Part shown: positions 9,172-51,239 of the stretch, piece after piece
How positions within the stretch are numbered: position 1 is the stretch's first letter
Layout of the letters: every line of letters starts with the position of its first letter
DNA from: Karstenula rhodostoma CBS 690.94
Taxonomy: Eukaryota > Ascomycota > Dothideomycetes > Pleosporales > Didymosphaeriaceae
Reading direction: 5' to 3'
DNA: 64,000 nt
Assembly (NCBI GenBank): GCA_010093485.1
Contig: MU001505.1
Location: 399,375 to 463,374 of the forward strand
Program-made: the position numbers and the translations under genes
The notes under the pieces: generated by a model
Databases searched by the model: none
What the model was told of the DNA's origin: nothing
The model's input: the letters and a program-made list of their open reading frames with translations, nothing else

Positions 9172-10059
9172 TCAAACCTCAGGATCTTCATTCGGGACAC
9201 CAACCTCGTCATGATAGACCAGCTTGTCCCTGCGCCTCCATTGACCATACTTGTCCATAATATGTTGAAGTCTGGTGTGGTCCCGACAGGTGCGTACATC
9301 CCACTGACCCTCGATGATAGAGCCCCATGGGTGTCCAGAGCGGTTCCGTGGGACTTCGAAAGTATCTATATTCACGTGGTCAGCCAACACACATCTAGAC
9401 CTTTGGTAGCCGGAACACTCACCATCCGCCGTGCAAAGTACCACGTTCCTCATATAATCAAAGCAATGCGCCACGTGATCCCCGTGCTGCAGCTGTTCCA
9501 ACGTCACGGAGCTCTCGTTCATCTTCTGGAGCGCCGTGCGCATGGAGGCGAGGCAGTGGAACGCGTGAAACATGCCGATACCGCCTTCGTCGTGTACGGG
9601 ATCCTTGCTGTACAAGCCCGCCGCATCTTTGAACGGCGGCAGAGCGATGAGGCCCCAGCTCTCGGTGAAGGCGTCGCTCCAGAGGTAGTCGTATTTATGG
9701 TTGAAGGACATGTAGCGCGGGTCGGAGCCGTACATCATGTGTTTGTTCGCGGGACCAGACGATACGCGGGGGTCGGGGCCGGTCACGGGCTGGGAGTAGT
9801 TGAGCAGCATAAGGAAGTTGGAGAGTAGCAGTAGAAGGCCGACGATCTCAAGCACGAGGCGCAGCCATTTCCACACGCGACCCCATTTGCTGGGCGAGCG
9901 GGTGGCGAGGCCGGGGTGCAGTAGCTTCTCGTCTTCGCCTTGGAATTCGTGGGACGAGGCGAGCGGGGAGTAGTTACTAGGTTTGGGGGTAGACGGGCGA
10001 TCTTCATATAGTGACATTGTTGGGTAGGGATTGGCGATCCGCTGGGGAGGGTGAGACAT
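9172..10059 (-). CDS. UstYa-like (DUF3328) membrane oxidase
   Basis: Exons 10059-9423 and 9365-9172, joined across a 57-bp GTGAGT...ATAG intron, give 276 aa. Splicing restores the reading C-T-A-D-D-T-F-E, typical of the family. A single membrane helix lies at about residues 62-88 after a cytosolic tail. Both hallmark HxxHC motifs are intact: HAFHC and HVAHC. UstYa-type proteins catalyse oxidative cyclisation, halogenation or related steps in fungal secondary metabolism, notably on ribosomal peptides (ustiloxin, cyclochlorotine-type pathways). No precursor peptide, UstYb partner or other pathway enzyme is visible nearby, so the substrate is unknown. The start could instead be the second Met (10017). 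Confidence 0.88.
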   Translation of the reverse strand: MSHPPQRIANPYPTMSLYEDRPSTPKPSNYSPLASSHEFQGEDEKLLHPGLATRSPSKWGRVWKWLRLVLEIVGLLLLLSNFLMLLNYSQPVTGPDPRVSSGPANKHMMYGSDPRYMSFNHKYDYLWSDAFTESWGLIALPPFKDAAGLYSKDPVHDEGGIGMFHAFHCLASMRTALQKMNESSVTLEQLQHGDHVAHCFDYMRNVVLCTADGECSGYQRSRCVLADHVNIDTFEVPRNRSGHPWGSIIEGQWDVRTCRDHTRLQHIMDKYGQWRRRDKLVYHDEVGVPNEDPEV

Positions 10060-11047
10060 TATCTCCCGTGATGGTTGTCTGATATGTAAGTGACTGTATT
10101 GTTGACTGTTTAGGGTCTAGTGCGCCTTCCTCGTGGGGTCGGCTGGGGAACCAACGGTGAAGTCTTTGTTTGATCGCTCGTATTTGCAGGATCGAGACCG
10201 CATGATAGGGGAAAATCTAGATCTTGGAATCAGATGTTTGTGGAAAGATACGTTCTGGAATCGGACGAGGTGGGTAGAAGTCAGGGTTTGGTCTAGTCCT
10301 AGAAAGGTAATAGCTGGCCAAAAGGGACACAGACGTGGGGAAGAACGACGCCGCATTGCGGTTGTATCCGATAGATATTTCGGAAAAGGAACAAATGATT
10401 GAATGGACGAGGTCCCCATCAGAGCCATCGGAAAATGTACAAATGCCATTATCCCGCAAAGTAACCCGGCGGGCGGAGAAACATCGATGCCCAGATATTC
10501 ACGAGCACTGGAAAAACGGCACTCAGGTGCAAAGCAAGTTAGGCTGGCCCGCATTACATTATCTAATAAGATAACCGGCGAATTCACCGGCCCGATGGTA
10601 CATCCGCTGTTGTTTCGCCATCAGACTTGAATCTCCCAATACCCCAGGTCATCCAATATCCGGCTAATGAGGACTGCATCTACATCGAATCTGCAAACTC
10701 GCGTGTACACGTAGATTGCGGGGAAACTAATATGAACGTTTTCCTCGTTTCGGCACTCGTATCCATGAGTCTGGCCAAGCCAATTGGATCCAAACCGCTG
10801 CGATCAAATGGCGCGCCCGGTCTTTTCCATCTAAGTGGTCGAGTTCAGATGCAATCAAACAAAACCACCATTGATTATGTTATGTAACCCTGGAGCGGAA
10901 TTGCGTGTGTTTGATTGTCTTGGAAGCATTGGCATATGTGTGGGGATGAAAGCCCCGGGACGAGGCAAGTATAAGATCTGGGATCTGGCCTTAGTCGAGC
11001 TCGACTGATCCACGCCGCACTTCCGTCGCAGATCCAGGTCTACCACA
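10060..11047. other. stretch without a supported gene
   Basis: Divergent intergenic region between the UstYa-like gene (minus) and the secreted protein gene (plus). It probably holds both promoters. No exon chain or repeat found. Confidence 0.5.
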
Positions 11048-29166: not shown

Positions 29167-31177
29167 GGTACAGTTGCTGCAGTGGGGTTTGTTGCTAGGG
29201 ACGTCGAGCCTGCGTGGGCAATTGTTGCTTGGAGATTTGCTGGAGAGTCGCTCGGGTATCGGACCTTCACTGGGTCACTGCAAAAAGATGCTTGTGAAGA
29301 CGTGAGGGTTGGTGAAGCTTGGTACAGCTTGTATTTGGTGAGGTATGGGCACGCACAATTGAATGTGCAGTGCTGGTGGGGAGATGGTGGGAAACGCGCG
29401 AGACGATGGCACTGGGAGACTTCGGGCTATTGATATAGTGTCGAGGCACGTCGCCAGGCGATGGGTAGCAACCGCGGGCATGTCGAAGAGTGGGGAACCT
29501 GAATCGAGTGTAGCGGGTGTGGCGGGTGTGGCAGGCCTTGCCAAGACGAGGACGGCCATGACGTCGATCGCCCGCACCGGTGGAAAAGAGCCTTCGTGCA
29601 GGGCTTTCGTGCAGGTGCGCGGTAGACCAGCACGGTTTGCCGGCGCAAAACACTGCGGGCTCCTCCGTTTTGCTGCAGTTCCCATTCGCCGGGCGGAATC
29701 TGTCACCATCTCGAGTGTGGCGGCGGAACATGGCGAGTGCGTTAACCTCTTTCCGGTCCAGCTTCTTCCGCCAACGCTACGAGCGGGCACTGACGCTGGG
29801 CACCGCACTGGCAACTCTGATCTGATATGAACCTGAACCGCCATGATGGTGCTGGACCGGACTGCCTTGCCGGGCGCTTTTCTCTCAAGCACGGTTCTAG
29901 ACGGTTGCTTTTGCCGCTAGTTGCTCACTCTCCAGGCCGTGTAAAATTTGCAGAGGCAACGTTCCCACCGGCCTGTCCCACCCATTACGTTTCCGATGCC
30001 GACGAGTGGGTGTAGACCGGAACATCCGACGTACCCCAGGACTCTGCAAGCCTTCCGTGCATTTCAGCCGCAAGCCTGCAATGCTACTTCCATCATCGCC
30101 ACTACCCTGCATACGACACTGCATGTCACCAATGTAAACGTTCGTGGAGAGTTGAAGTGGACCCTGGCAACATCGTCCGAGATTCTCTCACTGGGGCCAT
30201 TCTCACGCAATACCGCCACGCGATGCCCACTCTCCAATACTCGCTCCCACTGCCGATTGGACATCAACACCATGCAGATGCGATGCTTCATCTCCTAGCA
30301 AAACCTCCCGAGTGGCGCTTGCTGCTAATGACAGCTACTCCGACTTTCTGACAGGGTAGTAGATTACGGCATCGGAATAGCAAGAGGTGAACGTAGATGC
30401 ACGTGCCGAGTATCCGAGCCCGGGGGCCTTGTAGATGACAAAGAGGCCCGCCTCCACGGCCCTAACGCTGTGGGCCAACCCACCCCACGACGCCAAAACA
30501 AACCTGAGCCCGAGACCGCTGTGCAACTTCTACCCACACTCGAGCCCGAGACCCTGATGCAAGTATGTATTCTACCTACTCCTTCGCCCGCGGCCGAATC
30601 CAAGCCATGCTTCCCGCAGACCCATACCTACTCCCTTCTGCCAAAAGTGCACAACCAAAGAATCCCCCATTAAATACCAAATCACCAACAAGCTGGCTCG
30701 TAGCAAACCACTTTTCAATTAATCCAAAGCAGCAATCTTCCCACAAGCCCGCTCGTAGCAAAACAAAAACACCTCTTAATCTACCCACCAATGCCCACCT
30801 CCACACCCCTACTTAACCATACCAAATTTGATACTTCGCGCGCTCGGGCAAGCCGCGGCAAAACACAGTAAATAAACTCGGTGGACTTAACCATCCCATC
30901 CCATACCTAAAAAACTCCCACACCGCACCGCACCGCACGCCCCTCGTTCGTTTCCCCCCACCCACCCCACCACAGCCTCCAGCCAATAAAAACACCCCGC
31001 ACACCGCCTCCTTCCCTCCTCAGCTCAGCTCAGCTCAGCCCCAACCCAGCCCCAACCCACGCACGCGAGCATGACTCACACCGTGCCACCCCTCTCCCCC
31101 AACCCATCCTCCCCCATTTTCTCTCCCGGTATATATGCTTTTCAAAATTGGCATTACATAATACACCCCCAAAACCC
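29167..31177. other. long stretch without a supported protein gene
   Basis: Upstream region of the MFS gene, then about 1.5 kb with no family match. From about 30640 to 31060 the plus strand is unusually C/A-rich (CCCACAAGCC, CACCGCACCGCAC, CAGCTCAGCTCAGC) and leads into the tRNA genes. No repeat family or exon chain found. Confidence 0.5.
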
Positions 31178-31325
31178 GGCTTCATGGTCTAGTGGTGTAA
31201 GTTTGCCCTCCTCGCCTCGCTAGCTAGCTACAACGAATGTAAAACTAATATGCACAGATGATTCCTGCTTTGGGTTGTTAAACACAAAGTGCAGGAGGCC
31301 CCGCGTTCGAATCGCGGTGGAGCCC
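31178..31325 (+). tRNA. tRNA-Pro(UGG) with a D-loop GT-AG insertion plus the usual anticodon intron
   Basis: Acceptor stem GGCTTCA (31178-31184) pairs with TGGAGCC (31318-31324). The A box TGGTCTAGTGG is intact at 31185-31195. The anticodon stem CCTGC/GCAGG encloses TTTGGG with anticodon TGG (31271-31273). A 15-nt intron at 31275-31289 sits at the canonical 37/38 site. The T arm is CCGCG-TTCGAAT-CGCGG. A further 61 bp (31197-31257) splits the D-loop after AGTGGT. It starts GTAAGT, carries CTAAT at 31245-31249 and ends CACAG. Removing it restores AGTGGT-ATGATT, identical to the D arm of other fungal tRNA-Pro genes. Both insertions removed, the tRNA is 72 nt. Nine Ts follow as Pol III terminator. 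Confidence 0.85.
31197..31257 (+). other. spliceosomal-type intron-like insertion in tRNA D-loop
   Basis: 61 bp with donor GTAAGT, branch-like ACTAAT eight bases before the acceptor, and acceptor CACAG. This is the same architecture and length class as the protein-gene introns in this window. It leaves the A box intact and only widens the spacing to the B box to about 110 bp. Confidence 0.75.
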
Positions 31326-31328
31326 GTC

Positions 31329-31337
31329 TTTTTTTTT
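31329..31337 (+). terminator. Pol III terminator of tRNA-Pro
   Basis: Run of nine Ts three bases after the tRNA discriminator, as expected for RNA polymerase III termination. Confidence 0.85.
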
Positions 31338-31638: not shown

Positions 31639-31723
31639 GGGGGATTGGCGCAATGGTAGCGCGTTAGTTTTCGGTTCTTCTGAAATACACTAAAGGTTGT
31701 GGGTTCGAGCCCCATGTCCCTCG
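31639..31723 (+). tRNA. tRNA-Arg(UCG) with anticodon intron
   Basis: Acceptor GGGGGAT pairs with GTCCCTC (31716-31722) using two G-U pairs. The D arm is GCGC-AATGGTA-GCGC, the anticodon stem TTAGT/ACTAA and the T arm GTGGG-TTCGAGC-CCCAT. The loop reads TTTCGG then a 13-nt intron (TTCTTCTGAAATA) and C, giving anticodon TCG. A and B boxes are intact, and TTTTT at 31725-31729 serves as terminator. The fold is clear; the isoacceptor call depends on placing the intron at 37/38. Confidence 0.8.
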
Positions 31724-49067: not shown

Positions 49068-51239
49068 ATGAACACTGCAAGTTCTGTTAGCACAAAAACG
49101 CAAGATCTAAAACCTTTCATCTACCAACCATTGCTTGCGACATGCGAAATTCGTATTCTTGTGCTACACCCTGCCGGCTCTTTTGACAATCCATTAGAAG
49201 CGCATCTCCAGAGTCGGTCATTACCTCAAAACTATGGAGAGATAGTAAACCTCAAAGAGTTCCCCGGGCCGTATGAGGCTATTAATTATGTCTGGGGCGC
49301 TGCAGATCGAACTTTTGACCTGATATGCGAGGGCCGATTGCTCAAAGTGACTCGCAGTGTGGACACAGTGCTACGTCATCTCAGAAAAGAACGACAAAGT
49401 CGAAGACTATGGATAGATGCCTCCGATCGCCAAGCCCTGAGACGCCAAGCCCTACACAACAACCCCAGTTCGAATCCCACTCTGATCTTTACCTTTTTTT
49501 TATAATCTTTTTTTAAATATACTTATTTTTAAGCTATTAGCTAGGGGAAGCACCTTTTTGTCAATATTTTTGTCTACACACTCGATAACTCGATCTTTTT
49601 GTTATTATTTCCCTCCTGATGGATAGATGCAGTATGTAACAATCAAGATGATATGGTGGGGAAAGGCCCACAAATTACCCCCATGGATCGCATCTATGGA
49701 AGAGCAGTGGAAGTTCATGCATGGCTGGGAGAAGCTACTCCAGAGGACGACATCCCGAGTCTCTTTTCTTGCATCGTCAACTTGGTCTGTTTAGGTAATC
49801 ATGTCAACAAAATGAATGAAGAATGGGAGAATGATCCGTTCGAAGAAGAGGAATACACAGAGGCAGAGACTTGGGATGGAAGTGAGCTCGCGAAACAGTT
49901 CAGTGGTATCGATAGCCACGATTCGAATACGAAGAATGATGGGAAAGAAGAGAATGCATTGCCTGGACTCGAAGAAAAGAGTTCGTCACAACCAGTCGGT
50001 CTTATGAGGATGATACGTCCGTACATCCATCTTTTTCATCGAATGTTGTCTCGTCCATGGTTCCGGCAGCGCTGGATACTCCAGGAGATTGTACTAGCGC
50101 AGAAAATTACAGTCAGATGTAGCTCAAATGAGCTATCCTGGGTATGGTTGGAAAAGGGACTGAAGTTGTATCAACGCATTACACCATATCTCCCAAACAT
50201 TGATTCCGACATGCAGCAAGAGTCGCTCAAAATCCTAGACATCACGGTTGATTTGACCAAAAAGGACTTTTCCATACTGGAGCTCTTATGGAAATGCCAC
50301 GCCAGTGCGTGCAAAGAGCCTCATGATAGGACTGTAGCCCTGCTCGCTATGGTGCAGAAGATAGTTCCTCTATATGGCGTCAGACCTCCCCACAAGGCTG
50401 AGGTTCTTAGCACAAAACTTGCACCGAGCTATTCCGATTCCTGGGTCAAATCTTATGCCAGTATTGCAAGGGTGTATATGGAACAAGGCCATGTTCTTGA
50501 AATAGTAAGACATCTCTACGCATTTGGTTCACTTTGTGAGCAGGATCCCATCTGGCCTCCTTGGGTTCCAAGCTGGAATATGGAGCGGTCCATCCACAAT
50601 CAGATCACAGGCAAGGTATCTGGAAATTCTGATATGTACGAAGCAGCACCCTTGACTTCACCGGAATGGCATCGACTGTTGTGGGTTGGCCCAGCCCACG
50701 AGGAACCAATGCTTCTTTATAGGCCAATTCGGTCGGTCGCAAAGGACGGCGAGAAATGTCATCTAAAAAACATGAGCACTTTCCAGGACATCTATTCGCT
50801 ATGCTCACGTGCATCAGCCACTTCTTTCAAATCAAATCATCCGAATTTACAACTGTCCCGAGCACACCAGTTAGGAAAGATCACGTTGGACATTGCTTGC
50901 ACATCGGACACGTCAATATCCAATACCATCCGTAGCTGGGATCAAGGAAATCCATTTCAAGACCTTAATGTCGTAGCTCAGGACATTTCCAACGAGGCGA
51001 ATCGGCGAGAGAATCAAAGCTTCGAGATTGGAGATATGCCAGTCGCAGGTAACGAGCTTAGGCGAGGACAGCTATCTGCAGCTCTTGAACACTTTCGATT
51101 GTTGCTTTTCGAAAGGGAAGGGCTTGGAAACCATGTAATGCCTTGCATCGTACCGGCAGAAGGCCACCCAGAGGTCCTGCATATCCGCAACTTCCGTAAA
51201 GAAAATTCAAACCAGACGCACATTGGAAGGAAGGAATGA
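49068..51239 (+). pseudogene. HET-domain gene interrupted by a SINE-like insertion
   Basis: Coding parts 49068-49420 and 49631-51239 would make an uninterrupted 653-aa protein (1962 nt) if the 210 bp between them were absent. The insertion splits the HET domain between L-W-I-D and the rest of the A-V-C-N-N-Q-D-D motif. Other HET marks are YEAINYVWGAADRTFDLICE, then MDRIYGRAVEVHAWLGEATP and, later, MLSRPWFRQRWILQEIVLAQ. The rest of the frame carries no stop, so loss is recent, or limited to this insertion allele. The family mediates non-self recognition and cell death after hyphal fusion. The insert brings stops in the continuing frame (first at 49503) and has no splice sites at its edges. Confidence 0.85.
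49421..49618 (+). mobile_element. SINE-like retroelement insertion, 12-bp target-site duplication
   Basis: 198 bp bounded by ATGGATAGATGC at 49409-49420 and 49619-49630. Near its left end is a B-box-like GTTCGAATCC (49468-49477) followed by CACTCTGATC, as in a tRNA T arm, but the 5' half of that stem no longer pairs and no A box is present. CGCCAAGCCCT is repeated twice at the left. The right two thirds are T/A-rich. Size, a tRNA-related head, an A/T-rich body and a target duplication of this length fit a (5'-truncated) SINE. Confidence 0.7.

Follow-up and report, generated by a model that had tools for sequence, protein, structure and literature searches.

A GT-AG, spliceosomal-type intron in the D loop of a tRNA-Pro(UGG) gene, one of at least 12 such interrupted tRNA genes in Karstenula rhodostoma

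Eukaryotic tRNA and mRNA splicing are taught as separate processes, nuclear tRNA introns lying at 37/38 and being removed by a protein endonuclease. A tRNA-Pro(UGG) gene of the ascomycete Karstenula rhodostoma CBS 690.94 raises the question of whether this separation holds, for its D loop is divided by a segment with the outward features of an mRNA intron. The gene lies in a stretch of 64,000 nucleotides (the window; contig MU001505.1 of GCA_010093485.1, here C14:399375-463374), and the search was extended to the whole 44.3-Mb assembly of 29 contigs. Utp25, the single protein of the window used for placement, has its nearest match (of the 120 rows listed, counting those with a named source) in Paraphaeosphaeria minitans (85%), followed by Bimuria, Kalmusia and further Pleosporales, which puts the fungus in or near Didymosphaeriaceae.

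Read directly, the gene occupies 31178-31325 of the window (+ strand throughout). Exon 1 (tRNA positions 1-20; 31178..31196) is the same as in an intact paralogue on contig C3 and holds an intact A box, TGGTCTAGTGG (31185..31195), which abuts the GT-AG intron on its 5' side. This spliceosomal-type intron, GTAAGT...ACTAATATGCACAG, spans 61 nt (31197..31257) at 20/21 in the D loop, with a 5' splice site GTAAGT at 31197..31202, a branch-point element CTAAT at 31245..31249, the branch A of which (31248) is 9 nt before the last intron base, and a 3' splice site CAG at 31255..31257. Exon 2 (positions 21-37, anticodon TGG; 31258..31274) is followed by the ordinary 37/38 tRNA intron TTGTTAAACACAAAG (15 nt; 31275..31289) and by exon 3 (position 38 to the discriminator; 31290..31325), in which the B box region CGTTCGAATCG (31304..31314) is intact. 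The Pol III terminator is a T9 run at 31329..31337, and a TATA-like stretch, tatatatg, ~41-48 nt 5' of the tRNA (31130..31137), may be an upstream Pol III element. An earlier note on this DNA had described the 61-nt D-loop segment, the 15-nt 37/38 intron and the motifs GTAAGT, ACTAAT and CACAG correctly, and its claim that the A box, B box and T9 run are intact agrees with our reading. The neighbouring tRNA-Arg(UCG) gene (31639-31723), 313 bases from tRNA-Pro, is ordinary, with a 13-nt anticodon intron; farther away, an open frame with a UstYa domain (by name a mycotoxin biosynthesis family) at 9175-10116 (-) looks like a sign of a secondary-metabolite gene.

The exons of the window gene and the intact C3 paralogue (L002) are the same in 71/71 bases, and the comparison permits a single placement of the insert, from GT to AG; the standard D arm is regenerated by that removal, as the earlier note had stated. 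Annotation programs misread the gene: ARAGORN labels it tRNA-Phe(AAA) with a 73-nt intron, and Rfam, run on the whole window at the gathering threshold and on the gene's surroundings at E up to 1, detects only the tRNA-Arg. When the tRNA-Pro(UGG) genes of the assembly are counted and aligned, a check suggested with the original observation, those found are the window gene (split at 20/21), the intact C3 gene and a second C3 copy (split at 53/54). The earlier note had also named an intact tRNA-Pro(UGG) elsewhere, coupled with no transcript from this locus, as grounds for rejecting its reading; the first half of that condition holds, as the intact gene is present on C3, so the window copy may be dispensable.

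The window gene is not alone. At least 12 tRNA genes, on eight contigs, carry GT-AG introns of 49-67 nt at six positions: Pro(UGG) twice, Pro(AGG) twice, His three times, initiator Met twice, Ala(CGC) twice and Leu(CAG) once. The search tool itself describes its gene counts as lower bounds; 12 is thus a minimum, and on the same footing the interrupted genes make up 3/3 of the His, 2/3 of the initiator Met, 2/2 of the Ala(CGC) and 1/1 of the Leu(CAG) genes found. The insertion site is 10/11 in Leu(CAG), 20/21 in three Pro genes, 25/26 in both Ala(CGC) genes, 38/39 in one initiator Met gene and 45/46 in another, and 53/54 in the three His genes and one Pro(UGG) gene.

Seven Pro genes were recovered with a T-arm pattern, some intact at 20/21 (UGG on C3, AGG on C13, CGG on C14 and C18) and the others split there (UGG in the window, AGG on C12 and C5, the two AGG introns being 51 nt each and reading GTAAGT...CTAAT...ACAG). 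The eighth, a UGG gene on C3 ~0.76 kb from the intact copy, escaped this pattern, its T arm being interrupted at 53/54 by an intron GTACGC...CTAAC...CAG. In all three tRNA-His(GUG) genes found the break lies at 53/54, and the introns, 67, 62 and 55 nt long, read GTAGGT...CTGAC...ACAG; these introns (L011, L015, L020) have in common a hairpin, CCTCT..AGAGG, shortly after the donor, the remainder varying in length. No intact tRNA-His was seen when the letters of the 60 best Rfam tRNA places were read, and, the counts being lower bounds, one could have escaped detection. The three initiator Met genes are intact on C2, split at 38/39 on C5 (53 nt) and split at 45/46 on C8 (49 nt). The single Leu(CAG) gene found, with a 50-nt intron, was recognized by its acceptor end, and its donor and upstream exon were then found where this reading demanded them. 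Ordinary 37/38 introns are also present in 9/12 interrupted genes, and Leu(CAG) appears to have a second intron near the anticodon; most of the interrupted genes would therefore need two splicing systems.

This inventory was assembled from overlapping searches. In the Rfam tRNA search of the genome, 62 of 1177 candidates were scored and 60 places listed, all of which were read; they include 7/12 interrupted genes, the remaining five having been missed by Rfam. Exon queries for 13 tRNAs returned 35 matches with no extra ectopic intron save that of the Leu gene (judged mostly by match extent only), and queries for 11 more tRNAs returned 13 matches with no ectopic intron by match extent. Five of these 11 queries, with tRNA sequences of other fungi (Phe, elongator Met, Arg-ACG, Leu-AAG and Tyr), matched nothing; these families thus lie outside the survey, and further interrupted genes may exist. 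At ~1.05-1.09 Mb of C9 (L016, L017) lie several tRNA-like sequences whose acceptor and T arms are good but which have insertions of ~70-126 nt near the anticodon and, by reading, no T at position 33; they are possibly a tRNA-derived repeat or unusual tRNAs.

Pattern searches built on the introns themselves were set aside. The D-loop donor pattern TRGTNTAGTGGTGTAAGT, with up to 2 mismatches, occurs at 24 places vs 19 in the reversed control, its zero-mismatch places being the three known Pro genes only; a gapped version picked up 2, its gap limit of 50 excluding the window gene. The T-arm intron pattern YAGTTCGANNCC occurs at 106 places vs 202 in the reversed control, and among the 46/106 places examined, namely 40 fetched for the purpose, one in the window and five in loci covered before, only the four known genes pass as tRNA. 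A multi-copy element in the window (49410-49510), ending caaccccagTTCGAATCCCACYCTGATCTTTACC and followed by long T runs, has close copies at 6/40 T-arm-pattern places fetched (C1, C2, C17, C18 and C20 twice) and resembles a SINE of the Pol III type that has a B box.

The intron ends are uniform. All 12 begin with GT and end with AG (12/12 each), with donors of the form GTANGN and acceptors YAG in 12/12, and a CTRAN element is present in 12/12, its A lying 9-13 nt before the last intron base; the stricter CTRAY is found in 11/12, the Leu element being CTAAG, and three donors (GTACGC, GTAAGC, GTAAGG) are weaker than GTANGT. The donor and branch-point consensus is also seen in 27 mRNA-type intron candidates that were chosen partly by these signals. 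Those candidates, 27 in the same DNA vs 5 in a reversed control, have similar donors, and, with length quartiles of 51, 56 and 84 nt, they cover a range into which the 49-67 nt of the tRNA-gene introns fall; the likeness in signals and size to mRNA introns, claimed earlier for the window gene, extends to this comparison. By ends, by donor and branch point, and by length, the segments thus qualify, as sequence, as U2-type spliceosomal introns. The 41 distinct canonical-position tRNA introns among the called sequences are 6-38 nt long and, within three bases of register, have GT..AG in 2/41, neither with CTRAY, the branch-point check having been applied to these 2. All 12 segments sit away from 37/38, the one at 38/39 being one base off the canonical site.

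Intact paralogues fix the boundaries. For the five genes compared with such a paralogue, the number of possible insert placements is 1, 1, 1, 1 and 2, and GT..AG is among them in 5/5; the chance of this is ~2e-12 under uniform bases and independence, or ~1e-7 when only three sites are counted, as the two AGG genes are not independent. We also scanned the window and the fetched loci for GTANGN..YAG segments of 45-75 nt with a branch point, removed each one and called tRNAs. Of 177 distinct GT-AG candidates, 12 yield a junction-spanning tRNA, and these are exactly the 12 genes; three other dinucleotide sets in the same DNA gave 0/129, 0/97 and 0/182 (0/408 total). These figures are to be read with the facts that the donor and branch-point limits were fixed after the 12 were known and that most loci had been fetched for tRNA-like matches. 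Removal from GT to AG gives an ARAGORN tRNA call in 12/12 and the expected anticodon in 11/12; in the junction scan, Leu(CAG) was called as Leu(CAG) with its own intron, and the Pro gene split at 53/54 was called Ser. A deletion scan with ARAGORN was rejected as a means of fixing boundaries, being so tolerant that deletions several bases off were also called. Avoidance of TTTT was likewise rejected as a Pol III signature: 0/12 introns contain TTTT, yet its absence is not diagnostic, because only 2/27 mRNA-type introns contain it. No group I or group II ribozyme core was found in the segments of 49-67 nt, with Rfam (E up to 1, applied to the window gene only) returning the tRNA-Arg alone.

The insertions are compatible with the internal promoter, its boxes being judged by eye against the consensus. 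Introns at 20/21, 25/26, 38/39 and 45/46 fall outside the A and B boxes. Those at 53/54 lie inside the B box; there the final intron G replaces G53, and AG joined to TTCGANTCC still reads GTTCGANTC. The A box is interrupted by the 10/11 intron, whose CAG end replaces TGG before CCGAGCGG. At these two sites the boxes survive because the intron's own AG supplies box bases, which suggests that only insertions sparing Pol III initiation survive. A T run of at least 4 occurs within 60 nt 3' of 11/12 genes, the first (T4) of the Pro(UGG) copy split at 53/54 being 41 nt downstream; the short flank examined 3' of the Leu gene has none.

Exons and introns have fared differently within each family. The exons of Pro(AGG) are the same across C12, C5 and C13, those of the three His genes agree at 71/71 each and those of the two Ala(CGC) genes at 72/72. 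The Pro(AGG) D-loop introns, by comparison, match at 43/51, the His introns at 52 to 56 of 55 to 62 with 5 to 12 gap columns, and the Ala(CGC) introns at 28/43 aligned columns with 13 gap columns, while 100-base flanks in the Pro and His families are alignable only with 18-44 gap columns. The simple reading of the exon identity is that selection acts on the exons, exon-limited gene conversion being the alternative.

These data bear on whether the interrupted copies might be dead, having arisen by insertion into spare tRNA genes and been retained by chance. Pro(UGG), Pro(AGG) and initiator Met do have intact paralogues, and truncated tRNA pseudogenes occur in the genome: L158 (Val, C4:727068) and L159 (Glu, C1:284215-284254), both with changes in their remaining parts, give a picture of dead tRNA copies, and L111 (the start of an Ala-UGC gene) resembles a truncated pseudogene as well. 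The interrupted genes do not share that appearance; their exons are unchanged where introns and flanks have diverged, tRNA-His (3), Ala(CGC) (2) and Leu(CAG) (1) have no uninterrupted copy among those found, and GT..AG with a branch point 12 times over is not expected of random insertions, all of which makes this account very improbable. Misassembly or misreading of one locus has next to no standing as an explanation of twelve loci on eight contigs with six sites, whose introns have no detectable similarity between sites, and as a general explanation it is already refuted.

A more specific alternative is that the tRNA splicing endonuclease cuts these segments, which would then be ectopic tRNA introns in the style of Cyanidioschyzon merolae or archaea, with coincidental GT..AG ends. 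One paper (PMC3978253) describes ectopic nuclear introns in the D, anticodon and T loops of C. merolae tRNAs and lists 20/21 as a junction of its permuted tRNA genes, and canonical tRNA introns are numerous in the present fungus. Such a substrate would be expected to show the bulge-helix-bulge motif. At the exact junctions, however, the outer 5-bp helix is complete in 0/12, compared with 14/16 picked anticodon-intron controls, in which the anticodon stem serves as that helix. Pairs in the 4-bp central helix total 15 for the 12 introns, about the chance level, and 33 for the 16 controls, ~1.5 each being expected by chance; a one-base slip in register raises 7/12 introns to as many as 3/4 central pairs (2-4 in controls). 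Endonuclease cutting would also leave GT..AG plus branch point unexplained in 12/12, a combination seen in 0/41 canonical introns, and we regard it as very unlikely. The last alternative concerns origin and not removal, namely that a single mobile introner family spread into tRNAs by reverse splicing and left these introns as its copies. Introner-like elements have been described in Dothideomycetes (PMC4457414), the class of this fungus, and the two Pro(AGG) D-loop introns are related. Nine introns tested against the fetched DNA (E 0.05) nevertheless had no copy outside their own tRNA families save one 15-base match, between a His intron and DNA beside tRNA-Pro(CGG); the Ala introns did not match even each other in that comparison, and when the Pro and His introns, the only ones so queried, were part of searches across the whole genome, they matched tRNA paralogues alone. 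A single family is a doubtful source, though a less remote prospect than the other alternatives.

Based on these results, we propose, with a probability of about 0.9, that the window tRNA-Pro(UGG) is a working nuclear gene, that its 20/21 intron is genuinely spliceosomal, of U2 type, and that it belongs to a set of at least 12 such tRNA genes. Pol III would start from the intact A and B boxes and transcribe as far as the T run; the GT-AG intron would then be excised by the nuclear spliceosome, completing the tRNA fold; and the tRNA splicing endonuclease and ligase would next remove the 37/38 intron, where present. The spliceosomal step is placed first because the D or T arms cannot close beforehand. 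Removal by the spliceosome, as the earlier note had suggested for the window gene, is supported on the evidence of sequence, far better than a single locus would allow, by the six sites, GT..AG in 12/12, CTRAN in 12/12 and the lack of a bulge-helix-bulge at the junctions, and further by the interruption of every tRNA-His gene found; we infer that it is obligatory. The introns themselves were probably gained by insertion of mRNA-type introns; reverse splicing of one into the tRNA, the other suggestion of the earlier note, may have been the route.

The closest precedents are mRNA-type introns in U6 and rDNA. Ribosomal RNA comes from a large Pol I precursor, whereas the hosts here are small tRNA genes that Pol III would read from internal promoters, most also needing the tRNA endonuclease. 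Spliceosomal introns in the nuclear rDNA (18S genes) of ascomycetes (Cubero 2000 and Bhattacharya 2000, as cited in PMC11889510) resemble the present ones in type and in their hosts, which are likewise non-coding RNA genes of an ascomycete. The U6 snRNA genes of fission yeast have mRNA-type introns (Tani and Ohshima, cited in PMC10484740), for which that source gives reverse splicing as the proposed origin; these are spliceosomal introns in a fungal Pol III non-coding RNA gene, with removal needed for a working RNA. The U6 host RNA, in contrast, lies inside the spliceosome, and the host here is a tRNA. Neither of the two U6 genes matched in the present genome has an intron, both covering the full length of the model.

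With C. merolae and archaea the present genes share interruption in the D loop, the T loop and elsewhere and several introns per gene, but the ectopic introns there are linked to a bulge-helix-bulge and the tRNA endonuclease (PMC3978253), a motif absent at the exact junctions here, where the ends are GT..AG with a branch point. Canonical 37/38 introns share nine of the 12 genes with the GT-AG introns, yet are 6-38 nt long and not GT..AG with a branch point. The earlier note knew of no described fungal case, and among the matches listed in an open-access collection, which lacks most subscription journals, we found none that reports nuclear tRNA genes with spliceosomal introns. Searches with the introns gave 0 and 0 matches in bacterial and archaeal genome contigs and 0, 2, 0 and 0 in viral contigs, the two viral matches not looking like tRNAs; because none of these collections is fungal, they are uninformative on relatives.

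Eukaryotic tRNA annotation appears to be blind to this class of genes. With long introns allowed, ARAGORN miscalled four interrupted genes as Phe, Leu, Pyl and Ser, and tRNAscan-SE 2.0 is described as looking for introns outside the usual position in archaea (PMC8450103).

Single tRNA precursors in this fungus appear to need both splicing systems. If confirmed, this shows that short Pol III transcripts can be productive substrates of the spliceosome, down to a case in which the intron is preceded by no more than 10 nt of tRNA and the leader. Because each insertion site is pinned to a single base by the tRNA, these genes would also offer a natural system for the study of intron gain. We consider it likely, somewhat less firmly than the reading of the window gene itself, that the spliceosome is an obligatory tRNA maturation enzyme in this lineage, with repeated intron gains where the internal promoter survives. 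Because all tRNA-His genes and 2/3 initiator genes found are interrupted, along with several other tRNAs, histidine decoding and part of translation initiation would then depend directly on splicing capacity and, if this is confirmed, translation is coupled to splicing.
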